Shown: positions 31,214-61,682 of the stretch, in pieces
How the letters are laid out: each line of letters starts with the position of its first letter
Numbering within the stretch: the first letter of the stretch is position 1
NCBI RefSeq assembly: GCF_000317515.1
Contig: NC_019738.1
Location: 5,172,001 to 5,236,000 of the forward strand
From: Allocoleopsis franciscana PCC 7113
GTDB lineage: Bacteria; Cyanobacteriota; Cyanobacteriia; Cyanobacteriales; Coleofasciculaceae
Direction of reading: 5' to 3'
DNA length: 64,000 nucleotides
The notes under the pieces: generated by a model
The model's database searches: none
Told to the model about the DNA's origin: nothing
The model's input: only the letters and a program-made list of their open reading frames with translations
Program-made: the position numbers and the translations under genes

Positions 31214-32095
31214 CTATAAATAGCCATAAAGCTTAAGTTCGGCTTGGGCAATTCTTTCAGCTTCTTCAATTTCTTTAGGATTACGTCTTTTATGGATGCC
31301 TATTGACTGGGGATGAGCCTTTTTGATTTGTTTTTGCAGTTGTCGATTCATTTTGGCTCCAAAGTGGCTAGCAATCAGCTCTCCACATTTAAGGCTATCG
31401 CTGACTAAATCTTCGTATTTTATGAGTAGTACTCGACCTGTCTGTGCAACCTCAGGCTGAGAAAAAAAGGTGTGACATCGTCCCACCATCTCCTTCCACA
31501 TCCAAATCGCTCTGACATAGGGGGTGCTGCCCAAAAATTCTTCTTCTCTCCCTTCCTCAACCCACCAAGGAACATAACGCTCATCATATTTACGTCCGAT
31601 GGGCATTTCGGAGGTATTGAGAGCCATTAACTTTTCATCAGTAAGTACATCATAGGTTCTAATCAGGGAATCGGCACAATCTCGACCATCTCGGTAGAGG
31701 TGAAGAATACGACAATCGGGTAGCGCACGATATGTAAATTCTGGGGCAAAGCTGAGAAAAGGTTCTTTATAAATGATGCGTTCAACAACTCGTTTACGTT
31801 GCAAAGCTTGAAAAAACTCTTGGCTACTCATATAGCCTTTGAGCCATTTATGCAAGGCGGAAAATCGTGAAGAGGGAATGCCTGAATCAAGATAGTTCTG
31901 AAGGGAAGCTTCAAGTTCAAAAGCTAGGACATTATAAATATAGTCTGGTAAGGAATAGTTGACCAGATGAGGAATCGAAACGGGAATCAGGAGACCAGAA
32001 ATACATTCTGAATTCGCTAAAGCTCTGAGTGCCGTCATTAAAAATGTCGTTCCTGAACGAGGGCATCCCAGAACGATGCAATATTTTACTTTCAT
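31214..32095 (-). CDS. Sulfotransferase family protein
   Basis: 293 residues with the PAPS-binding P-loop CPRSGTTFLMTALRALA near the N-terminus (about 10-26) and the 3'-phosphate-binding region ILHLYRDGRDCADSLI. The middle and C-terminal parts include WMWKEMVGRCHTFF and LIKYEDLV. It would transfer sulfate from PAPS to a glycan hydroxyl. Together with the neighbouring acyl-, glycosyl- and methyltransferases it probably decorates an exopolysaccharide. First gene (3' most) of an AT-rich block. Confidence 0.85.
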   Translation of the reverse strand: MKVKYCIVLGCPRSGTTFLMTALRALANSECISGLLIPVSIPHLVNYSLPDYIYNVLAFELEASLQNYLDSGIPSSRFSALHKWLKGYMSSQEFFQALQRKRVVERIIYKEPFLSFAPEFTYRALPDCRILHLYRDGRDCADSLIRTYDVLTDEKLMALNTSEMPIGRKYDERYVPWWVEEGREEEFLGSTPYVRAIWMWKEMVGRCHTFFSQPEVAQTGRVLLIKYEDLVSDSLKCGELIASHFGAKMNRQLQKQIKKAHPQSIGIHKRRNPKEIEEAERIAQAELKLYGYL

Positions 32096-38514: not shown

Positions 38515-38928
38515 CTACCAGATACGGTTACGAGTAGCACTTTGTTGTTGGGACTGAGAACGCTTCACATCCGCTAAAAAGGTTCTGGTTTCCTGCACCA
38601 ATTGATCCAGCCGTTGGCAATCTGGGCTGAGGGCTACTTGACTTGGACGTCTAGCGAATCGGCGCGGTCCCATGGGTGCAGAAGCATTACCGCAACGACG
38701 AGAGACTTCATCCAGTTCTTGAGCAAGGCGTCGAGCCGTACTGAGAATTTCCGGAGACAGCTTGCCATTCATCTTAAAGATGGGTGAGACGCTGTTCCAG
38801 ATGTTGCCTCCCGTAATATCGGATTGGTTCCCGGCGGCTGGGTTGCCAGCGTTCGCAGGAATGGCGAACAATCCACTGCTCAACAGTGCCGTGAATAGAA
38901 CCCGACTCATCCATTTTGTTCTAAGCAT
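38515..38928 (-). CDS. Small secreted protein with GNQSDITG motif (copy B)
   Basis: 137 residues with a signal peptide (VLFTALLSSGLFAIPANA, cleavage after ANA about residue 27). The mature start AGNPAAGNQSDITGG shares GNQSDITG with the 208-residue secreted protein at 41.0-41.6 kb. It is basic, with two cysteines (C79, C104 approx.), and ends in a Gln/Ser/Arg-rich helix. No family recognised. It lies 32 bases downstream of an outer-membrane beta-barrel gene, as the paralogue does. Confidence 0.75.
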   Translation of the reverse strand: MLRTKWMSRVLFTALLSSGLFAIPANAGNPAAGNQSDITGGNIWNSVSPIFKMNGKLSPEILSTARRLAQELDEVSRRCGNASAPMGPRRFARRPSQVALSPDCQRLDQLVQETRTFLADVKRSQSQQQSATRNRIW

Positions 38929-38960
38929 GATTCTTTCTCCTAATGTGAGTTTTGAGTAAT

Positions 38961-40619
38961 TTAAAACTTGAATGCCAAGCCAGTACCTAAGACAAATCGA
39001 GGCCCATCTCCAGCACCCACAATGTCCCGCACCGCAGGCGTAATCACCAAGGGGATGTTTTTAAAGGGCGCGAGTGAAAGCCCAACTCCCAAGTCTTGCC
39101 CACTCCACTCCGCGATTAAACTAACCGGTCGAGCAACACGAACCGCAACATTACCAAAAACACCGATTCCACCATCATCCTTGGCTACAGCATCTTCCGT
39201 GCGGAACTGTCCGTTACCGACACCCGCCGTAACCGCAACTCGGCTAAAGAGCGAGTTGATGTCGTCTCGCGTCCGGAACACTTTGCTAACCACACCATAA
39301 ATGGAATTTTCAAAGTCATTACGACCGCCTAGATTAGCAAAGCCATTCCAGCCAGCGGCAACGGCTAAGCCATCACCAATTTGGCGGTGTACTTTGGCAT
39401 TAAAACCGCCACCCCCAAAGTCTCGACTACCCCCAAAGCTAGCAGTCGTATAAGATAGCTCAACACCAACCGCTTTTTGTGCATCGCCCAACCCAACACC
39501 AATCACCGCACCGCCATCACTGACGTTACTGTACCGGGTTCGCTCCTGAAACGTTGCACCGATAAAACCGGTATTGTTATCCGCACCAAACCCAGTAGGA
39601 ATATAAATACTCAGAGCGGGTGAAGCCTCAAATCCTTGATCAACTTTGACGTTCTCCAAATCCCGCAGCTCATTTTGCAACCCTTCAGCCTGCCGCAAAG
39701 TTTCAACCGGAGGACAGAATCTTGTTTGTACAGCCTGTGCGACAACCTTCCCTGTCTGCTGAGAATTGACAGCCTCCTGCGAGGCGGGAGCGTAGGCAAG
39801 ACAGGAAGATGTTGGTGTGGCCTGTGCCACAATGTCCCTAGTCTGCTCAGGATTGACCGTTCCTGGGAGAGTGGGAATCTCACGATTAGAGAGGGACGTT
39901 GCACTCCACTCCAACGTCGGAACTCCCTGTAAATCCCGCGCACTGTTGCTCTGTAAAGCCGCAAGGTTTTTCGCGGCAACAAGTTGCGGGTTACGGCTTG
40001 GGGATGGGGAATTGGAGGCAGGGGAGGCAGAAGCCGTGGAGGAAAAATTTTCCTCCCGCTCCAGAAATTGTTGACTTGGCTCAGTCTCCACTCCCCGGAT
40101 TGATGGCTCATTTTGAACCGATGTCCGCGCCAGTCTCACCTCTGTTCCTGGCGGTGCCATGTTCGCACGAATGGATTCAGAAGCTGCCGTCTTCAGAGTT
40201 GGTGCAACGGCTTCTGATTCGCCGAGGCTCGATGGAGTGACAAGAGGTGCTGAAGCTTGAGCAAATTCCGGTGCAAATTCTTGTACGTTTAGGGATTCCG
40301 GCGAGGCAACGGCACTCTGGCTAGAAGCCAGCCTCGCTTCTTCTGCTGCCGTGGGAAGCCCATCGCCTGCCTGTTTAATTTGTGATTGTTGAGCAAGGTC
40401 TACTACGGGAGCCGCAAAGGCTTGATGGGCAAAATCCTGAGCGGCAAGGGCAGCTAAGGTATAAATGGCAACACTGGAAGCCTGCCTTAGAGGGGAAGCC
40501 AACCCATTTTTGGATAGGTTCGGTAAATCTTTCAGCTCTAACTTGACTGGATTCTTATCAGGTCGATGCTCAAAAAGTAAATCTCGGTGAGAACATTGAG
40601 TGAAAGTCTCTTTTGACAC
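38961..40619 (-). CDS. Outer-membrane beta-barrel protein with Ser/Ala-rich N-terminal half (copy B)
   Basis: 552 residues. Residues 1-70 include a hydrophobic stretch (SVAIYTLAALAAQDFAHQAFA) that may be an atypical signal or anchor. About 70-310 is low-complexity Ala/Ser/Glu/Pro. The C-terminal about 225 residues (from PALSIYIPTGFGADNN) alternate beta strands and end with phenylalanine (LGTGLAFKF), as outer-membrane proteins do. This domain is clearly paralogous to that of the SLH-containing protein at 41.7-43.4 kb: shared TGFGA, QERTR(Y/F), GLGDA, VHR, YGVV(S/T)KV, LIAEW(S/T)GQDL and PLVITPA. No SLH domain here. Function unknown. Confidence 0.75.
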   Translation of the reverse strand: MSKETFTQCSHRDLLFEHRPDKNPVKLELKDLPNLSKNGLASPLRQASSVAIYTLAALAAQDFAHQAFAAPVVDLAQQSQIKQAGDGLPTAAEEARLASSQSAVASPESLNVQEFAPEFAQASAPLVTPSSLGESEAVAPTLKTAASESIRANMAPPGTEVRLARTSVQNEPSIRGVETEPSQQFLEREENFSSTASASPASNSPSPSRNPQLVAAKNLAALQSNSARDLQGVPTLEWSATSLSNREIPTLPGTVNPEQTRDIVAQATPTSSCLAYAPASQEAVNSQQTGKVVAQAVQTRFCPPVETLRQAEGLQNELRDLENVKVDQGFEASPALSIYIPTGFGADNNTGFIGATFQERTRYSNVSDGGAVIGVGLGDAQKAVGVELSYTTASFGGSRDFGGGGFNAKVHRQIGDGLAVAAGWNGFANLGGRNDFENSIYGVVSKVFRTRDDINSLFSRVAVTAGVGNGQFRTEDAVAKDDGGIGVFGNVAVRVARPVSLIAEWSGQDLGVGLSLAPFKNIPLVITPAVRDIVGAGDGPRFVLGTGLAFKF

Positions 40620-41002
40620 AAACAGCTCCTAATTAAAGATGCTGTCCACTTTTACAGAAACTCTGTTAATAATCAGGATAAATTAAACTTTATATATTGA
40701 CAAAGATGCAAAGTTGTGCATAAATTTTCTCTAAAAGAAAAATTTGAGCAGCGCTAAGCTATATCAACGCGAGCAAACCCAAAAAGCGTTGCACATTGCT
40801 CTATGGAGTGGCAAACCCAATAAGTCCAGCCTGTTTGAAGAGTACAGGCTCGACTTTAATACCTAAAAGGCGCTCCCAGTCGGCAAGCCCATTAGTCTTA
40901 TTCCTTTGACCTGCCTTCGATGCTTAAGTTCCCTGATTAAGTCAGCTTTTGGCTCACCGACCACTGTGGAGGCCAGTCTAACTGAGAGGATGAATTACAT
41001 CG
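40620..41002. other. Intergenic region inside the duplicated barrel module
   Basis: About 380 bases upstream of barrel copy B and downstream of the copy A small gene. AT-rich near 40660-40740. No gene seen. Probably the promoter of copy B. Confidence 0.5.
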
Positions 41003-41629
41003 TTATCGGCTAGCATAAGCCGCATTCAACAATTGGGCCAACACAGAGCGAATCGCCCGAAGTTCATCAGGGTTATTGGTGAGTAGAGCAAGCGTACTGC
41101 TTTCAATAAACACATTGTAGGAACGAATCACGTTCTGGCACTGAGCGGCCTCAACGTTACCATTGGCGGTCAATCCCACCATGCTAAGCACCAAGTTCCG
41201 GGAGAGTTGCACATCAGCTCCGGCATTGACCAAACCGTTCACAAACTGCGTCACTCTGGCATCCACATTGGTCGTGTTATTCAGGATAATAAACAAGGTT
41301 TGCTGCACGGTTGGAGCGACTGCCGCTTGAGAAGCATCTGTCGCAACAATCGCTAAGCTTTGCTGCTGTAGCTGCTGATTAATTGAAATAGCGGCACTGT
41401 TGACAGAACTTTGAATTCCTGGGTTGGCGAAAGCGATGAGTCTGCGGCGACCACCACCGCCACCACTAAAGTTAAAACCACCCGCCACATCACTCGTTGT
41501 GATAATCACACCCGTGATATCGGACTGGTTGCCTGACTGCGCTTGAGCTTGTGGGGTTTGAGCAACAACACCTGAAATCGCTAGGGCAAAACCCAAGCTC
41601 AACTGTAAAGGAAGATGTTTAATGTTCAT
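41003..41629 (-). CDS. Secreted protein with GNQSDITG motif (copy A)
   Basis: 208 residues with a signal peptide (LSLGFALAISGVVAQTPQAQA, cleavage about residue 31). The mature protein starts QSGNQSDITGVIITT, then a Gly/Phe run (GGFNFSGGGGGRRR), followed by a Ala/Asn/Gln-rich helical domain (QQTLFIILNNTTNVDARV). One Cys. Similar in its opening to copy B at 38.5-38.9 kb, but the remainder differs. 23 bases downstream of the SLH-barrel gene. No family recognised. Confidence 0.7.
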   Translation of the reverse strand: MNIKHLPLQLSLGFALAISGVVAQTPQAQAQSGNQSDITGVIITTSDVAGGFNFSGGGGGRRRLIAFANPGIQSSVNSAAISINQQLQQQSLAIVATDASQAAVAPTVQQTLFIILNNTTNVDARVTQFVNGLVNAGADVQLSRNLVLSMVGLTANGNVEAAQCQNVIRSYNVFIESSTLALLTNNPDELRAIRSVLAQLLNAAYASR

Positions 41630-41652
41630 AACTTTACCTTGATAAGGATGAC

Positions 41653-43386
41653 TTAAAACCGGATGCCGTAACCAACACCGAGAATGAACCGGACACCATC
41701 TCCAGCATTACCTGTCACATCAGCCGCCGCCGGGGTAATCACGAGGGGCACACCACGAATGGGATAAATCGAGGCTCCCAAATTCAAATCTTGACCCGTC
41801 CATTCGGCAATCAGGTTAACGGGTTCAGCCACTTTTAGAGCTACACTACCAAACACATTGGTCCCGCCTTCTCGATTGTTAACCTTCTCTTCTGAACGGA
41901 AACGACCCCCACCTAAGCCGAGGGAAACCGTGAGCGCGCTTAAGGGATCAGTGGGGTCTTGAGTTAGGGGAAGGACTTTAGTGACAACCCCGTAAACACT
42001 CTTGCCTGCATCGTTATTCCCCCAATCAATCGCATTCTCAACACCAACGGCAACGGCTAAGTCACCGCCCGTCTCATTGGTAAAGGTGCGGTGTACCTTA
42101 AAACTCACGCCACCATTTTCCCCAAAACCTTGCCGGAGGGTAGAATAAGAGGTGACCGCGACTTCAGCCGCCACTAGCTTTCTGGCATCCCCTAAACCAA
42201 AACCTGCGGTAACGGCACCATCATCAGTATTCGTAAAGCGGGTTCGTTCTTGATAGCCAAAGCCCACAAAAGCATCACGCCATTGAGCGCCAAACCCTGT
42301 GGGTGTACTAATACTGGTGCCGCCGCCAAATAGTCGCCGAGTGATGGTCGAAACAGGCGGTTCTGGAAGGCGATACTGTTGTCTCAAAGCCGCCAGATCA
42401 TTTTGGGGCGGGGGAGAAGGCTGTGTTGCAACGGGGGGTTGGTAGCCAATGATATAGCGTGATGCCATATCCGAAGGATTAACGGGTGGCAGAGTACCCT
42501 CTTTCACTAAAGCCTGATAGATAAAGGCCGCTACGTCGGCGCGAGTGGCGTTGATGTTGGGATTTAAGAGAGCAACATTTGGGTAGTTAACCACCAGTTG
42601 ATTCAATGTTGCCGCCGCCACCTTAGGACGGGCAAAATCAGGAATTTGTGCAGCGTCTTGAAAGCTACTGTTTAAGACGGAGGCGACTTGGGTAGGTGGA
42701 GACAGATCCAGTCCAGTCACCAGAGAGACTAACACCTGAACGCGAGGAATATTTTGTTCAGGCAGGAAGATACTGTTGGGGTATCCTTCCAGAAATCCTG
42801 TGCGATAAGCCGTTTGAATTGCCTCGAATCCCCAGTAATTGCTAGGGACATCCACAAACTGAGTGCCTGGGCGTTCAGCCGCTCGGGGAAACGCCTTACG
42901 AATCATTGCCGCAAACTGAGCGCGGGTTACTGGGTCATCGGGTCGGAATGTTCCATCGGGAAAACCCAGAATCACACCCCGTTCTGCTAGGGTTTCAATA
43001 AATGTCTGTGCCCAGTGACCTTGAACATCAGGAAAGGTTCTGTACTGAGCCAGTTGCATGGCGGTTGCTCTTGCCGGTTGTTGTTGCCCTACACTGACGG
43101 TGGTGGGCTGGCTCTGGTTGGGCACAGTGCTCCCCTGATCTGGAGCTTGGGGACGAAGAGCCTCGGCTCCCAGCATATTTTTCAGGAGAGATTGACCCAA
43201 AGAACCACCAGAAGAAGCCTTAGCTGTCGTTTTAGGAGGAGAGGGCGGTGTGGGATTGGCAACACCCGCCACAGCGGATAGCATAGTACTGCTTAAGATA
43301 GAGCTGATTAAGATATGCGCCCAAAGGCGTAGATTTTTGCTGACTTGATAGAAACGACCCGTGCATCTGGCTTTCCTCATCACCAT
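41653..43386 (-). CDS. SLH-domain outer-membrane beta-barrel protein (copy A)
   Basis: 577 residues. A long signal region (about 1-43, ending VAGVANP) is followed by a Pro/Ser/Gln-rich linker, then three S-layer-homology repeats (about 116-300: FPDVQGHWAQTFIETLAERGV, FVDVPSNYWGFEAIQTAYRTG, FQDAAQIPDFARPKVAAATL), which bind peptidoglycan or its polymers. The barrel domain (about 350-577, from STPTGFGAQWRDAFV) ends in FILGVGYGIRF with a terminal Phe. In cyanobacteria SLH plus barrel proteins link outer membrane to wall. Followed by a small secreted protein; the unit is duplicated downstream. Confidence 0.9.
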   Translation of the reverse strand: MVMRKARCTGRFYQVSKNLRLWAHILISSILSSTMLSAVAGVANPTPPSPPKTTAKASSGGSLGQSLLKNMLGAEALRPQAPDQGSTVPNQSQPTTVSVGQQQPARATAMQLAQYRTFPDVQGHWAQTFIETLAERGVILGFPDGTFRPDDPVTRAQFAAMIRKAFPRAAERPGTQFVDVPSNYWGFEAIQTAYRTGFLEGYPNSIFLPEQNIPRVQVLVSLVTGLDLSPPTQVASVLNSSFQDAAQIPDFARPKVAAATLNQLVVNYPNVALLNPNINATRADVAAFIYQALVKEGTLPPVNPSDMASRYIIGYQPPVATQPSPPPQNDLAALRQQYRLPEPPVSTITRRLFGGGTSISTPTGFGAQWRDAFVGFGYQERTRFTNTDDGAVTAGFGLGDARKLVAAEVAVTSYSTLRQGFGENGGVSFKVHRTFTNETGGDLAVAVGVENAIDWGNNDAGKSVYGVVTKVLPLTQDPTDPLSALTVSLGLGGGRFRSEEKVNNREGGTNVFGSVALKVAEPVNLIAEWTGQDLNLGASIYPIRGVPLVITPAAADVTGNAGDGVRFILGVGYGIRF

Positions 43387-43594
43387 TTCCTACTATGCGT
43401 GCAGTTGAGTTAATACCTCAAAGGTACACGAGGTTAGTCTATTTTATGTCATCACTATATCTTCCGGAACTTTCCCCAAAAATAGAGTGACTTGGTGTAA
43501 AGAGAGTCAACATTTGATTAATCGAGACGGTTTGAAAGTGAGCCCAAAAAGACCCTTTGAGATGTTTTGTCGAATCGGTATGACAGGTAGTGGT

Positions 43595-45202
43595 ATGAGG
43601 AAACGCCTGAATCCACCCATCGCGGGTTTAACCTTGATCACATTGATGGCGACGGCTGTACCCGCTCCTAGCCATGCCCAACTTCCCACCTTACCAGCTC
43701 CTAGGGATTCACAAACTTCCCCTTCCCCTAATCCGAACAATGTTCCATTTCCTCCAGCATCTGCGCTTGAGGGTTCCCCAATTCCCTCATTTTCCACGCC
43801 TCCCTCATCCCCGGAGGCACCCCCTCCTCCGGCTGGGAGTCGCCCCTCTGGATTTAGTAACTTACCACCGGAAACCCCTTACACCCTCGGCGCTGGCGAT
43901 CGCGTCAGAGTTGATGTCTTTGATGTTCCTGAATACAGTGGCGAGTTTGCGGTTTTAGTGGATGGTACCCTGAACCTACCGGTGATTGGTGCCGTTACCG
44001 TGCGAGGGCGGACACTGCAACAAGCCAGTGAAACCATTTCTCAACTCTATGCTCGCTACGTGAGGCGTCCCCTTGTCACCGTAGGACTCCTAGCTCCCCG
44101 CCCCGTCACGATTGCCGTCGCGGGTGAAGTCAATCGTCCGGGAACTTACACCGCAGGTGCTCAAGGTGGCGCTGGTGCTGGTACAGTCGCAGGACAATTT
44201 CCCACCGTCACCCAGGCGATTACTCTGGCGGGTGGCATTACTCAAGCGGCTGCTGTAGGGGAGGTCAAACTCCGGCGTCGTAATTCACCCACAACCTACA
44301 CCATTAACCTCTGGGCTTTATTAAACCAGGGCGACATCTCCCAAGATGTAGCGTTAAGAGATGGAGACACCCTGTTTATCCCCACGGTTACGGATGTCAA
44401 TCCCACCGACACTCGGACACTGGCGGATGCTAGTTTCGCCAACCGACAAGCTCAACCGATTAATATTGCGATCGTGGGCGAAGTTGCTCGTCCTGGCCCT
44501 TATGAAATCACAGGTGGAGGAGCCGGGACGGGCGGTGCTACAGGCGCAGTCACCGGTGCCACGACGGGTGTAGCGGCAGGCGGAGGCACGGCGGGCGGCC
44601 CACCAACGATCACCAAGGCGATTCAAGTGGCTGGAGGGATTACCTCCCAGGCGGATGTACGCTCTGTCACTATCCGGCGTCCAACTCGCTCAGGCCAATC
44701 CAAAGTCATTGAGGTCAATTTATGGGAGATGTTGCGTACCGGTGACATCTCTCAAGACGTAATCTTACAAAATGGCGACACCATTACAATTCCTACCGCC
44801 ACGGCGATTGACCCCGCCGAGGCAACCATACTGGCTGGAGCGAGTATTTCTCCCAATACCATTGTGGTGAACGTGGTTGGGGAAGTGACCCGAGCCGGTG
44901 CTATCCCCGTGCCCCCCAACACCCCCTTGAATCAAGCCATACTGGCAGCAGGTGGATTTAACACTCGCGCCAAGAAGAGTAAGGTTGACCTAATTCGCCT
45001 CAATCCCAATGGCTCGGTTTCCAAACGAGAAGTTGAGGTCGATTTGGCTCAGGGCATTAATGAAGAAGGTAATCCTACTTTACGCAACAATGATGTTGTG
45101 GTTGTCAGACGCTCTACCGTCGCTAGCATTGGGGATACTCTGGGTACGGTTTTGTCACCGATTACTAACTTCTTCGGCTTCTTAAACCTGTTTGGTTTTT
45201 AA
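43595..45202 (+). CDS. Polysaccharide export outer-membrane protein (OPX/Wza-like, SLBB)
   Basis: 535 residues from ATG 43595 (alternative ATG 43580). Signal peptide (about 1-30, LTLITLMATAVPAPSHA), Pro-rich linker (about 32-90), Poly_export domain (about 94-180: YTLGAGDRVRVDVFDVPEYSGE, FAVLVDGTLNLPVIGAV, SQLYARYVRRPLVTV), then three SLBB-type beta-grasp repeats (VAGEVNRPGTYT, IVGEVARPGPYEI, VVGEVTRAGAIPV) each with a Gly/Ala-rich loop. Such proteins form the outer-membrane channel of Wza/Wzc-type capsule exporters. Divergent from the SLH barrel; the BY-kinase lies 306 bases downstream on the same strand. Confidence 0.9.
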   Translation: MRKRLNPPIAGLTLITLMATAVPAPSHAQLPTLPAPRDSQTSPSPNPNNVPFPPASALEGSPIPSFSTPPSSPEAPPPPAGSRPSGFSNLPPETPYTLGAGDRVRVDVFDVPEYSGEFAVLVDGTLNLPVIGAVTVRGRTLQQASETISQLYARYVRRPLVTVGLLAPRPVTIAVAGEVNRPGTYTAGAQGGAGAGTVAGQFPTVTQAITLAGGITQAAAVGEVKLRRRNSPTTYTINLWALLNQGDISQDVALRDGDTLFIPTVTDVNPTDTRTLADASFANRQAQPINIAIVGEVARPGPYEITGGGAGTGGATGAVTGATTGVAAGGGTAGGPPTITKAIQVAGGITSQADVRSVTIRRPTRSGQSKVIEVNLWEMLRTGDISQDVILQNGDTITIPTATAIDPAEATILAGASISPNTIVVNVVGEVTRAGAIPVPPNTPLNQAILAAGGFNTRAKKSKVDLIRLNPNGSVSKREVEVDLAQGINEEGNPTLRNNDVVVVRRSTVASIGDTLGTVLSPITNFFGFLNLFGF

Positions 45203-45508: not shown

Positions 45509-47836
45509 ATGGAGATGGGCAATATTCAAGATCCATTACTACCGAATGGCAATGGTAAGCGCTTGCCGTCAATGCCGCTCATCTATCCCACTAAACCGCC
45601 AGAGAATCCTGATGATGATGACCTCAATCTTCGGCAGCTATTGACCGTATTCAAGCGTCGTGCCCTTGTCATTGCTGGGGTCGCGATCGCTGTAACTTCG
45701 GGAATTGGTTTTTGGAGTTTTCGTCAGGAGCCAAAATACGAAAGTCGCTTCCAGCTTTTGGTCGAACCGGTCACAGCCGAGGGGGGAAAGCTGAACAAAT
45801 TGGCACAAGTGCCCGGTGTCACTGATGTTCCCTATTCGGTTCTGGATTACGACACGCAAATTCAGGTGCTGCGTAGCCCGAATTTAATGAGTCCCATTCT
45901 TAAAGAAATCCAAAAGCGCTATCCCGACGTTAGCTACGATTCCCTAATTACCAGTACTAAGCTCAAAATTGGTCGATTGGAAGAAACAAAAATTCTAGAA
46001 GTCCGCTATCGGGACACAGACGCCAAAAAAGTTCGGGAAATCTTACACCAGGTTGCCAGGGGTTATTTGCGCTATTCACTGCAAGAGCGGCAGATGAACC
46101 TGAAGAAGGGTATTGAGTTTGTGGATAGTCAATTACCTCAACTACGCCTGCGGGTAGACAAACTCCAAGCTGATCTGCAAGCATTTCGGCAGCGCAACGA
46201 ACTCCTCGACCCGGAAAGCCAATCCCAACAGCTCGCGATGCGGGTGAATACAATTGAGCAACAGCAGGTAGACACACAAGTCAAGATCAGAGAAAACCAA
46301 TCTCTGTATGCTACCCTTACGTCACAACTGGGGTTGCAACCGGAGCAGGCGATCGCGACAACTAGCCTCAGTGAAGCTCCTCGCTACCAACAACTCCTCA
46401 ACCAGCTACAAGAAATTGAAGCCAAAATTGCTAAGGAGTCAGCACGTTTTACGGAAGACAGCCCGACCATTGTTGCCCTACGCAACCAACAGCGCAATCT
46501 CCTACCTCTGCTGGAACAAGAATCCCAAAAAGTGATCGGGACGAATCTGCAACAGGCCGGTGTCACCAATGATTCACCGAGTTCGATTCGTAACCAACTG
46601 TCACAGCAACTGGTAGATGCCGCTAACCAAATTCAAGTTTTGCAAATGCGACAAAAGGCGATCGCTCAAGCTGAACGCCTGTTAAACCAGCAAGTTAGAC
46701 AAATGCCGGTGGTTGCTCGCCAATACACCGATTTACAACGAGAACTGAATGTGGCGACGGAGAGCTTAAATCGCTTTCTGGGGGTTCGGGAGGGATTGCA
46801 AATTGAAGTTGCCCAGAAATCTCTGCCTTGGGAAATCATTTTAAAACCTGAAGTGCCTAAATTTCCGGTTTCTCCTAATAATGAGCGGAACCTTATTTTA
46901 GGTGCGATCGCGGGTTTATTATTGGGCACGGTTGTTGCCTTAATGGTCGAACGTTTAGACAATGTTTTCCACTCTCCCGATGAACTCAAAGACCGCACTA
47001 AACTGCCACTGCTGGGTGTCATTCCCTACAGCAAACAACTGAAAGAAATCATGCCTGCGGCTACTTTGGCTGATAAAATGCCAGAGCCAGAAGATGCCAC
47101 ACCCAAAAAGGGCAATCGCCGCCAGCCCCAATGGTATAAAGCATCGCCCTTTTTAGAATCCTTCCGTTCTCTGCATACCAATATTCGCTTTCTGGGTAGT
47201 GATACACCTATTCACTCCATTGTGATTAGCTCGGCAACACCAGGCGATGGCAAATCGACCGTTTCCGTTCACCTCGCTCAAGCGGCGGCAGCAATGGGGC
47301 AACGGGTACTGCTAGTCGATGCTGACTTGCGCTTACCACAGGTGCATAAAGTTTTGGGCTTGGAAAACCAAATTGGTCTGAGTAACGTAATTGCCACTGG
47401 ATGTACGGCGAAACAAGCCATCCAGCGATTACCGATGTGGGATCACTTGTATGTCTTAACCGCTGGTCAGCTTCCACCTGACCCCACTCGGCTCCTATCT
47501 TCTAAGAAAATGCTGTATCTGATGGAGCAATTTCATGCCGTTTTTGACCTGGTGATTTACGATACACCCCCTGTCCTAGGACTGGCGGATGGTCAACTTT
47601 TGGCCGCTCATACCAATGGGGTTGTCATGGTAGGAGGATTGGGTAAAACGGATCGGTCAATGATGATGCAATCCTTAGATCGGCTGAGAATTTCTAACGC
47701 TACTGTTTTAGGTGTGGTTGCCAACGGTGTCAAGGGGTATACCACCCAATCTTACTATCATTATCAACACTACTATGCCCCAACTGAATCAGAAGTGATG
47801 AAGGCGAAGAAGCTGTTGCAAAAAAGGATGGGTTAA
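45509..47836 (+). CDS. Polysaccharide biosynthesis tyrosine autokinase (Wzc-like)
   Basis: 775 residues. N-terminal Wzz-type domain with membrane helix at about 51-70 (LVIAGVAIAVTSGIGFW) and a second at about 470-488 (NLILGAIAGLLLGTVVALMV), between them a long coiled coil (about 200-420). The C-terminal BY-kinase (about 550-740) has Walker A SATPGDGKSTVSVH (~577), Walker A' LLVDADLRLP and Walker B LVIYDTPP. The tyrosine tail YTTQSYYHYQHYYAPTE is the autophosphorylation cluster. It drives chain-length control and export together with the OPX protein. The D-D-D-D acidic stretch at 37-40 precedes the first helix. Confidence 0.95.
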   Translation: MEMGNIQDPLLPNGNGKRLPSMPLIYPTKPPENPDDDDLNLRQLLTVFKRRALVIAGVAIAVTSGIGFWSFRQEPKYESRFQLLVEPVTAEGGKLNKLAQVPGVTDVPYSVLDYDTQIQVLRSPNLMSPILKEIQKRYPDVSYDSLITSTKLKIGRLEETKILEVRYRDTDAKKVREILHQVARGYLRYSLQERQMNLKKGIEFVDSQLPQLRLRVDKLQADLQAFRQRNELLDPESQSQQLAMRVNTIEQQQVDTQVKIRENQSLYATLTSQLGLQPEQAIATTSLSEAPRYQQLLNQLQEIEAKIAKESARFTEDSPTIVALRNQQRNLLPLLEQESQKVIGTNLQQAGVTNDSPSSIRNQLSQQLVDAANQIQVLQMRQKAIAQAERLLNQQVRQMPVVARQYTDLQRELNVATESLNRFLGVREGLQIEVAQKSLPWEIILKPEVPKFPVSPNNERNLILGAIAGLLLGTVVALMVERLDNVFHSPDELKDRTKLPLLGVIPYSKQLKEIMPAATLADKMPEPEDATPKKGNRRQPQWYKASPFLESFRSLHTNIRFLGSDTPIHSIVISSATPGDGKSTVSVHLAQAAAAMGQRVLLVDADLRLPQVHKVLGLENQIGLSNVIATGCTAKQAIQRLPMWDHLYVLTAGQLPPDPTRLLSSKKMLYLMEQFHAVFDLVIYDTPPVLGLADGQLLAAHTNGVVMVGGLGKTDRSMMMQSLDRLRISNATVLGVVANGVKGYTTQSYYHYQHYYAPTESEVMKAKKLLQKRMG

Positions 47837-60027: not shown

Positions 60028-60332
60028 TGGTGTTATTCACTCCAATTTAGAGCAGTTCTCTAACTCCTTATTATTATCTGAATTTCATCGGCTTAGTAGC
60101 CGCTACAAACTCACCTTTGAGCAAATCCTTCACCCTATTGCTCGATAGTTGTGTACGTGTGGCGATGGAGCAATAAAGCAAATGGGCAATTAAATTTGAA
60201 AAAATCCGGATTACATAAAAAATAGAGCGTCTTAAGTATATCAGGTTGTTGTTAAGTCGCCAAACACCCATCCCTTTGTTAAAGTGGCGACAGGGTGCAG
60301 GGAAAACAGTAACAAATTATACCACATGGGCA
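60028..60332. other. Divergent intergenic region
   Basis: About 300 bases between msrA and the GH8 endoglucanase. No gene or repeat recognised; AT-rich in the centre around 60180-60235. Confidence 0.5.
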
Positions 60333-61682
60333 ATGAACCCAATGCTCCCTCAATTTACTGAAATTGTCTCTCTCAATCCGGGTCAGCGGTGTTTGAGGGC
60401 GGTTACAGCCGTCGCGCTTTTGCTGAGCTTAGCGGGCTGTACTTCCGGCTCTTCTCAGGGACAACCGGAAACGCCACAACCGACTTCATCCGATTCCTGG
60501 GAGTCACCAGAGCCAACACCAACGCCCAAGTTACCAACACCCACGCTGCCTGGGTTGAGAAATGCGCCTTCTTTACCCAAATCAACGGCCAACCGGGAGC
60601 TACTCGAAGAAAGCTGGGACATTTATCGGCAGCAATTCATTCAAGTTGATGGGCGAGTCATCGACTATGAAGATAGCGATCGCTCCACCTCTGAAGGGCA
60701 AGCTTATGCGATGCTGCGAGCGGTTCTAATTGATGACCCAACCACGTTTGCTCTCTCCTTAGATTGGGCCGAAAAAAATCTCCACCGACTTTCGGAAACC
60801 GGCACTCATCGCGACCAACTTTGGGCGTGGAAGTGGGGACAAGCTCAACCGGGAAAATGGGGGCCGATTGACAAAAATTTTGCCAGTGATGCGGACATTG
60901 ATGCAATTACCGCTCTCATCCTGGCTTCGCGCCGCTGGAATCAGCCAGAATACCTGAATTTAGCACGCCGCAAGCTGCGAGATTTGTGGTATTTCTCCAC
61001 CATTGAGGTGCCGGGAGGTAAACGCTATCTCTTACCCGGGCCGGCCGAAGCCTTTGCACCCACGCCCACGACTATCTATCTCAATCCCTCTTATTATGCC
61101 CCTTATGCTTTTCGCCTGTTTGCCCAGGTTGACAAAGAGCACGATTGGATGAGCCTGGTTAAAAGTAGCTATGAATCCCTCGAACAGTCGTCCAAGGTTT
61201 CGGCGGCTGGCTTACCCAGTGACTGGATTGCCCTAGACACTCAAACCGGAAAGTACCAGCCGGTACCACCTCAGAGCAAGCTTCAGAGCGTTTATAGTTT
61301 TGATGCCTATCGAGTTTGGTGGCGAGTGGCTTGGGATGCGGCTTGGTTTAACGCTCCCGAAGCTAAAAAATATCTCAGCACAGCGACCAAACATTTAGAG
61401 AAGCAATGGCGTGAGCAAAAGCGCCTGAGTGCTCGGATTGACCTCCAGGGAAAACCGACCGTGAACTACGAGGCGACATCTCAATATGCGATGCTCATAC
61501 CCGCCTTTCGGATAACCAACCCCGATTTAGCCCAGGAGTTACTTAAAGATAAACTGTTACCTCAATATAAACAGGGGATTTGGGATGATGAATCGGCTTA
61601 CTATACCCAGAATTTGGCCTGGTTAGGGATACTGTCTCCCAATGTTGTTAGTCCTCAACTTCTACAACCTCAGCCGAAGTGA
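60333..61682 (+). CDS. GH8-family endoglucanase, lipoprotein
   Basis: 449 residues from ATG 60333; an earlier start at 60246 adds an unlikely sequence. Lipobox LLSLAGC at about residues 29-35 followed by a Thr/Pro linker (about 40-85). The GH8 (alpha/alpha)6 domain (about 90-440) shows the acid Glu in TSEGQAYAMLRAV, the conserved Asp in ASDADIDAITALI, and YLNPSYYAPYAFRLF, TVNYEATSQYAML. GH8 enzymes cut beta-1,4-glucans (BcsZ-like) or related glycans. In the outer or inner membrane leaflet facing the periplasm it could trim an exported polysaccharide. Followed 94 bases later by an SGNH-like hydrolase gene. Confidence 0.9.
   Translation: MNPMLPQFTEIVSLNPGQRCLRAVTAVALLLSLAGCTSGSSQGQPETPQPTSSDSWESPEPTPTPKLPTPTLPGLRNAPSLPKSTANRELLEESWDIYRQQFIQVDGRVIDYEDSDRSTSEGQAYAMLRAVLIDDPTTFALSLDWAEKNLHRLSETGTHRDQLWAWKWGQAQPGKWGPIDKNFASDADIDAITALILASRRWNQPEYLNLARRKLRDLWYFSTIEVPGGKRYLLPGPAEAFAPTPTTIYLNPSYYAPYAFRLFAQVDKEHDWMSLVKSSYESLEQSSKVSAAGLPSDWIALDTQTGKYQPVPPQSKLQSVYSFDAYRVWWRVAWDAAWFNAPEAKKYLSTATKHLEKQWREQKRLSARIDLQGKPTVNYEATSQYAMLIPAFRITNPDLAQELLKDKLLPQYKQGIWDDESAYYTQNLAWLGILSPNVVSPQLLQPQPK

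Follow-up and report, generated by a model that had tools for sequence, protein, structure and literature searches.

Curli biogenesis (CsgG/CsgA), the autotransporters and two-partner secretion each join an outer-membrane pore to a dedicated client. Curli subunits reach CsgG by means of an address at the N-terminus, immediately behind the signal peptide, and the clients of two-partner secretion also carry such an address. These pores differ from the barrel described below, CsgG having 36 strands and TpsB having 16 strands and POTRA domains. Here we describe two gene pairs in a 64,000-nucleotide stretch of the genome of the cyanobacterium Allocoleopsis franciscana PCC 7113 (contig NC_019738.1, positions 5,172,001 to 5,236,000; "the window" is this whole stretch). 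Each pair, A and B, consists of an outer-membrane beta-barrel gene and a gene for a small secreted partner that carries the sequence GNQSDITG, which we call the tag. Our leading explanation, offered tentatively, is that each unit joins an outer-membrane channel to a client dedicated to it, this client being recognized by its N-terminal tag and most likely exported in FapF-like fashion or held at the surface.

Three other described systems are relevant. The Fap system, which secretes functional amyloid in Pseudomonas, involves a cysteine protease, FapD (PMC5557850). GfcD and YjbH, of the group 4 capsule and yjb operons, have a FapF-like first barrel, and the operon includes a small, possibly secreted protein, GfcA (101 residues, threonine-rich), beside genes for outer-membrane polysaccharide export (OPX) and polysaccharide co-polymerase (PCP) proteins (PMC8592465 and PMC9603273). 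This is the closest known arrangement, and its function is likewise unsettled. In the composite OPX/beta-barrel translocon of Myxococcus, the barrels EpsX, ExoB and WzpB have 18 strands and the OPX proteins are short, at 280 residues or less (PMC9601211).

Association of the tag with the barrel family

An exact GNQSDITG occurs at two sites in the A. franciscana assembly (7.97 Mb, nine contigs), both in the window and both behind a barrel gene. A looser pattern has six genome sites, four of them in tag genes behind barrels. The genome encodes four barrels of this family, all directly followed by a signal-peptide protein with the tag or a variant of it. In the third pair (locus L012) the partner is a secreted CHAT protease with two tag copies (GNQSDTTG and NQSDTTG), and in the fourth (L013) it is a protein of the same type as partner B, with GSFSDISG. 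When the DNA of 285 cyanobacterial genomes was searched with the pattern GNQSD[ITVA]TG, seven sites in five genomes were found, and all seven are directly behind a barrel that had been found independently.

The barrel is present in 33 of the 116 cyanobacterial genera sampled. We collected 103 non-redundant barrel loci, three of which are at contig ends, leaving 100 that could be tested. A crude automatic test found a signal-peptide-like open reading frame directly downstream in 89 of these, at a median distance of 19 bases. Of the 11 misses, eight have a signal-peptide partner when inspected by eye, and L121, L118 and L039 are left as real or possible exceptions. In L039, which has a distant barrel, the usual partner is replaced by an RTX-like repeat protein without a signal peptide. 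The strict tag was found in 37 of the 89 partners and in none of 475 other signal-peptide-like open reading frames in the same loci (p about 1e-33, a value that is only a guide because the background frames are not confirmed genes and the loci are related by descent); two raw background matches, themselves partners of near-identical loci, were left out of this count. Partner profiles gave a similar result, with 7/7 and 15/17 matches adjoining a barrel and both exceptions among the weakest matches. The association of tag and barrel is not due to chance, and across genomes the two are nearly inseparable. The tag did not turn up in unrelated genes, which the preliminary description of the window had considered as grounds for abandoning the pair. 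Barrels without a partner, considered there in the same way, are rare; in a divergent clade of barrels the partner is present but has no tag.

The partners comprise the 208-residue type, to which partner A belongs; the 137-residue type, that of partner B, marked by TNIWNN and a conserved pair of cysteines; CHAT proteins of about 450-690 residues; and a heterogeneous remainder. The CHAT class is the largest, with 37 loci besides L012. In a maximum likelihood tree of 115 barrels, in which the relatives are filamentous cyanobacteria, the partner classes need 10 changes, as compared with 59 when the labels are shuffled (partner-only rows were left out of the alignment). Each barrel clade keeps its own partner type, which shows co-inheritance. 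In a profile-profile comparison of the 208-residue and 137-residue families, only 19 columns align, and these are the cleavage region and NQSDITG. In two genomes the 208-residue profile also picks up the tag in CHAT partners. Since the tag is shared by partners whose bodies are unrelated, it looks like an address or a docking motif. Some partners carry it repeatedly, with four copies in L076, degenerate arrays in L107 and several scattered copies in L023. The L023 partner (L023:2190-3680, G229) has about 490 residues, with the helical domain present twice and GNxSDGT tags as far as the neighborhood of the C-terminus.

Matches to the C-terminal domain of the 208-residue profile also turn up in the divergent, tag-less clade, in secreted proteins encoded close to a barrel and in some cases by a third gene. 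In two loci of that clade (L147:1007-3414 and L148:737-2571) two genes for secreted proteins lie behind the barrel; in L148 the product of the first is Gly/Ser-rich. The second protein has partner A's helical domain, so that partner A looks like the two joined in one. A different third gene is found behind many pairs of the 137-residue type (L013:3476-4144, L078, L086, L091, L123 and others); it encodes a conserved secreted protein of about 220 residues with the motif VEFEFxESNGAYQSxFGVxxLDTG, and the L013 copy has no Pfam match.

Distant homologues of the barrel are encoded on plasmids of Cetobacterium somerae (Fusobacteriota; hhalign probability 99.5%, E 8e-23) and Cereibacter (Alphaproteobacteria; 96.9%, E 1.6e-10). 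Behind each is a small signal-peptide protein without the tag, at a distance of 12 bases and 1 base, respectively, and the pair, without the tag, is therefore more widespread than the cyanobacteria. The barrel and small protein of the Cetobacterium plasmids (L135:2824-6290 and L137:5004-8537) are annotated merely as hypothetical proteins. A stealth (capsule phosphotransferase) gene is about 1 kb upstream of the Cereibacter pair. The Cereibacter partner was rejected as a relative of the window partners, no homology being seen to either family A or family B.

The gene structure given for the window in the preliminary description was accurate as to open reading frames, minus-strand orientation, barrel motifs and the gaps of 23 bases (barrel A to partner A) and 32 bases (barrel B to partner B). 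The SLH domains assigned to one barrel are in A, the long disordered region assigned to the other is the low-complexity N-terminal part of B, and both partners do have GNQSDITG right after the signal peptide. The same description regarded the locus as a duplicated module. It does contain two barrel/tagged-partner units of one barrel family, but the barrels are 47% identical and, by alignment and tree, are in two anciently separate clades. Because of this separation, and because the small proteins are unrelated except for the tag, units A and B are not copies of one module. A recent tandem duplication is ruled out by the barrel tree and by the partner profile-profile comparison, in which only the tag region is shared.

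The pair had also been thought to be unnamed, and the searches agree. Pfam gave no meaningful match to either window partner or to either barrel domain alone, NCBIfam gave only weak sub-threshold matches, and the PHROGs matches fall on the SLH part, none of them covering a barrel domain or a window partner. Assignment to the SLH iron-uptake/OprB-like porins (NF033921) was rejected, with a score of 31 bits against a cut-off of 100 and the best stretch in the SLH part only. No paper was found in our literature search on the tag or on CHAT proteins with barrels in cyanobacteria.

Predicted structures and a proposed mechanism

Two independent AlphaFold co-folds were made from relatives in which the partner is in frame with the barrel, the barrel stop codon being read through to give an artificial linker. 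This was a computational device, and we do not claim real read-through. The barrel part came out confidently in both models, as a 12-stranded barrel with pLDDT mostly above 85. The top structural match of both is FapF (Z 16.9 and 18.1, about 195 residues), and KdgM, NanC, COG4313 and NalP barrels score close behind, the 12-strand fold being common to several unrelated families. In a comparison with the helical plug and periplasmic trimeric coiled coil of FapF, the confident N-terminal segment of the barrel models aligns from FapF residue 88 on and is not helical. Sequence homology to FapF was not seen when a profile of 68 barrels was compared with PDB chain sequences, there being no match at E up to 10. 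Membership in the COG4313 family (PF13557) was rejected, as this family has no match anywhere in the A. franciscana genome. Conservation is higher at lumen-facing strand positions (3.19 bits) than at lipid-facing ones (2.78 bits; p 0.005), where facing was assigned by hydrophobicity and not by coordinates. The near-invariant barrel residues are K84, H86, R216, D207 and E179 (L102 numbering).

The partner of the 137-residue class is modeled as a helical hairpin. The CHAT part of the other relative's model matches TPR-CHAT/Csx29 of Craspase (Z about 17) and separase. The CHAT fold of the third A. franciscana pair's class is confirmed by this model, by Pfam (E 4e-66 for the A. franciscana protein) and by the His-Cys dyad, which is kept in most members.

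In the mechanism that we propose, the barrel would be a small pore of the FapF/autotransporter type with a conserved polar lumen. The client, made from the gene next to the barrel, would cross the inner membrane via Sec, and signal-peptide cleavage would expose GNQSDITG at or near the new N-terminus. The tag would be the address read by the cognate barrel, and the client would be passed through that barrel or lodged in it, arriving at the cell surface or sheath. For pairs A and B the client may belong to the matrix or the surface, as a small protein produced along with the exopolysaccharide of the locus, and for the third pair it would be the CHAT-type cysteine protease. The FapF-like fold of the models and the N-terminal position of the tag favor export. 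The preliminary description had proposed a matched channel/cargo or channel/plug pair. A channel with a dedicated secreted partner is well supported by the genetic evidence of adjacency, of co-inheritance of clade and partner class and of the shared tag; the partner may be either cargo or plug.

Polysaccharide genes and competing explanations

The window locus has genes for a sulfotransferase, glycosyltransferases, methyltransferases, an OPX protein, a Wzc-like kinase, UDP-sugar enzymes including a UDP-sugar dehydrogenase, and a GH8 hydrolase, and its product is probably a sulfated exopolysaccharide. Coordinates are given in Table 1. From its domain assignment, the SLH region of barrel A is predicted to bind peptidoglycan or another cell-wall glycan.

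Table 1. Features of the window and of the third A. franciscana pair (window positions unless marked otherwise)
Feature	Position	Strand	Description
Barrel gene A	41653..43386	-	577 aa; signal sequence, Pro-rich linker, SLH domains, C-terminal 12-stranded barrel domain (fold from relatives' models)
SLH region, barrel A	42487..43038	-	about residues 117-300; Pfam PF00395, two stretches, E 6.7e-27
Barrel domain of A	41653..42327	-	motifs GLGDA, QERTR, IAEWTGQDL, PLVITPA; alignment
Partner A	41003..41629	-	208 aa; signal peptide, tag, conserved ITTSD..GG stretch, C-terminal domain (AYN..I ... RAI..VL) common to relatives
Tag GNQSDITG, partner A	41510..41533	-	directly after predicted signal-peptide cleavage (AQAQS/GNQSDITG)
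Barrel gene B	38961..40619	-	552 aa; long low-complexity periplasmic N-terminal part, C-terminal barrel domain
Partner B	38515..38928	-	137 aa; signal peptide, tag, NIWN motif, helical hairpin (predicted, from the model of relative L102), conserved Cys C79 and C104
Tag GNQSDITG, partner B	38809..38832	-	right after signal-peptide-like N-terminus
OPX (Wza-like) polysaccharide export protein	43487..45202	+	571 aa; Poly_export and several SLBB domains; divergent to barrel A, arrangement also in relatives
PCP / BY-kinase (Wzc-like)	45509..47836	+	same polysaccharide locus
Sulfotransferase	31214-32095		
GH8 hydrolase	60246-61682		
Third pair (L012)	L012:4760-7359 = own genome C1:6816759-6819358		barrel and secreted CHAT (separase/Craspase-like) protease

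An OPX gene is divergent to the barrel gene in the window and in L044, L045/L020, L049, L091 and L095. OPX, PCP or ABC-permease genes are near 7 of the 25 non-redundant loci of the 137-residue and 208-residue types and near none of the 28 CHAT loci (p 0.003). Because of these export genes and the divergent OPX, both window pairs probably have a part in sheath assembly or in exopolysaccharide export, to which the CHAT pairs show no link. Two Cetobacterium strains have the barrel and small protein at the front of a gene cluster with Wzz, CpsD and CpsB. All of this, together with the sulfotransferase, glycosyltransferase and UDP-sugar dehydrogenase genes, would also fit a barrel that serves as exit pore, or as an accessory one, for the exopolysaccharide of the neighboring OPX and PCP proteins, its partner being a tag-bound plug, gate or adaptor and the CHAT partners a specialized offshoot. 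The 12-strand oligosaccharide porins KdgM and NanC score nearly as high as FapF, and a repeated tag fits docking. We rate this as the main rival, somewhat less probable than the leading explanation. Weighing against it, no polysaccharide export genes are found near the CHAT pairs, which form the most numerous class; a lumen of 12 strands leaves little room for a polymer; and the window OPX protein is unlike the short ones that need a separate barrel (PMC9601211).

The channel-client explanation has its own difficulties, and the following points weigh against it. The fold alone does not fix the substrate of the modeled barrel, because KdgM, NalP and COG4313 barrels score near FapF. Binding of the tag by the barrel is something that we infer, since neither co-fold docks the tag in the barrel with confidence (tag pLDDT about 40-58 and 26-40). 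The CHAT domain and the cysteine pair of the 137-residue class point to bodies that become folded in the periplasm, and such bodies would not fit a 12-strand lumen. Multiple tag copies, even far from the N-terminus as in L076 and L023, are more in keeping with a docking motif than with an export signal that is used once, and these repeats and the folded client bodies together favor docking. Neither the divergent clade nor the pairs outside the cyanobacteria have the tag. Those divergent barrels, which work with untagged partners, and the indirect nature of the case for tag-barrel binding also leave room for a tag that some factor other than the barrel reads, as a signal for sorting, processing or glycan binding, with barrel and partner sharing only an operon. 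A short, polar tag could bind sugars or be a processing site, but we judge this improbable given that the tag is so seldom separated from the barrel and that partner class tracks barrel clade. Less probable still, in our estimate, is a partner that helps to assemble the barrel or forms a structural subunit of it, SLH-bearing barrels then acting mainly as envelope tethers. The SLH domains of barrel A and the one-to-one gene order with a short gap would be in keeping with this, but the partner bodies are too diverse, and a CHAT peptidase with a His-Cys pair in most members would be an odd assembly factor. We retain the dedicated channel-client pair as the leading explanation, with transport direction and surface location as its putative parts.

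Comparison with known systems

The pairs described here resemble the Fap system in the 12-stranded barrel, in an operon that joins a barrel with small Sec-exported proteins, and in the involvement of a cysteine protease, which is FapD in Fap and the CHAT partner in one class here. Unlike FapD, which is a C39 domain, the CHAT protease is itself the tagged partner. The barrels have no detectable sequence homology to FapF, partners of class B are predicted to be helical hairpins, and the alignments of both window partner families have no repeat unit resembling the FapC amyloid repeats (alignments only were used, without an amyloid predictor). The trimer and coiled coil of FapF are not seen in our models, which were built as single chains, and the consulted sections on Fap mention no comparable N-terminal tag.

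GfcD/YjbH and GfcA/YjbE share with the window the FapF-like 12-strand barrel, the OPX and PCP neighbors and the small, possibly secreted protein. GfcD, which binds GfcB and GfcC, is built as a double barrel that includes an internal domain, whereas here there is a single barrel with an SLH or low-complexity N-terminus. The gene order also differs, and the available parts of the GfcD/YjbH papers report no tag. The composite OPX/beta-barrel translocon likewise has a barrel gene near an OPX gene in a polysaccharide locus, but its barrels have 16-18 strands, as compared with 12 here, and the window OPX protein has 571 residues and several SLBB domains; the portion of the source consulted describes no small partner. 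Membership in this group is ruled out by the 12 strands and the long OPX protein, and we retain it as a functional rival. In the autotransporters (type Va) the passenger and barrel are one polypeptide, unlike the separate, adjacent genes in all loci that we examined.

Exporters with 12 strands and OPX-linked barrels are known kinds; a barrel family with unrelated clients under one short tag was not found in the literature searched. The passage of proteins and polysaccharides across the cyanobacterial outer membrane is poorly known, and the pairs described here offer a defined, testable channel and client with an eight-residue address and connect an outer-membrane pore with a class of secreted CHAT proteases. 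Should the tag indeed be an address, it could be used for routing chosen proteins to the cyanobacterial surface. More speculatively, one barrel family may handle unrelated secreted proteins by means of a portable N-terminal tag, serving sheath proteins and surface CHAT (separase/Craspase-like) proteases in filamentous cyanobacteria and having tag-less versions in the Fusobacteriota and Alphaproteobacteria. It would then be a split, tag-addressed analogue of the autotransporters and FapF.

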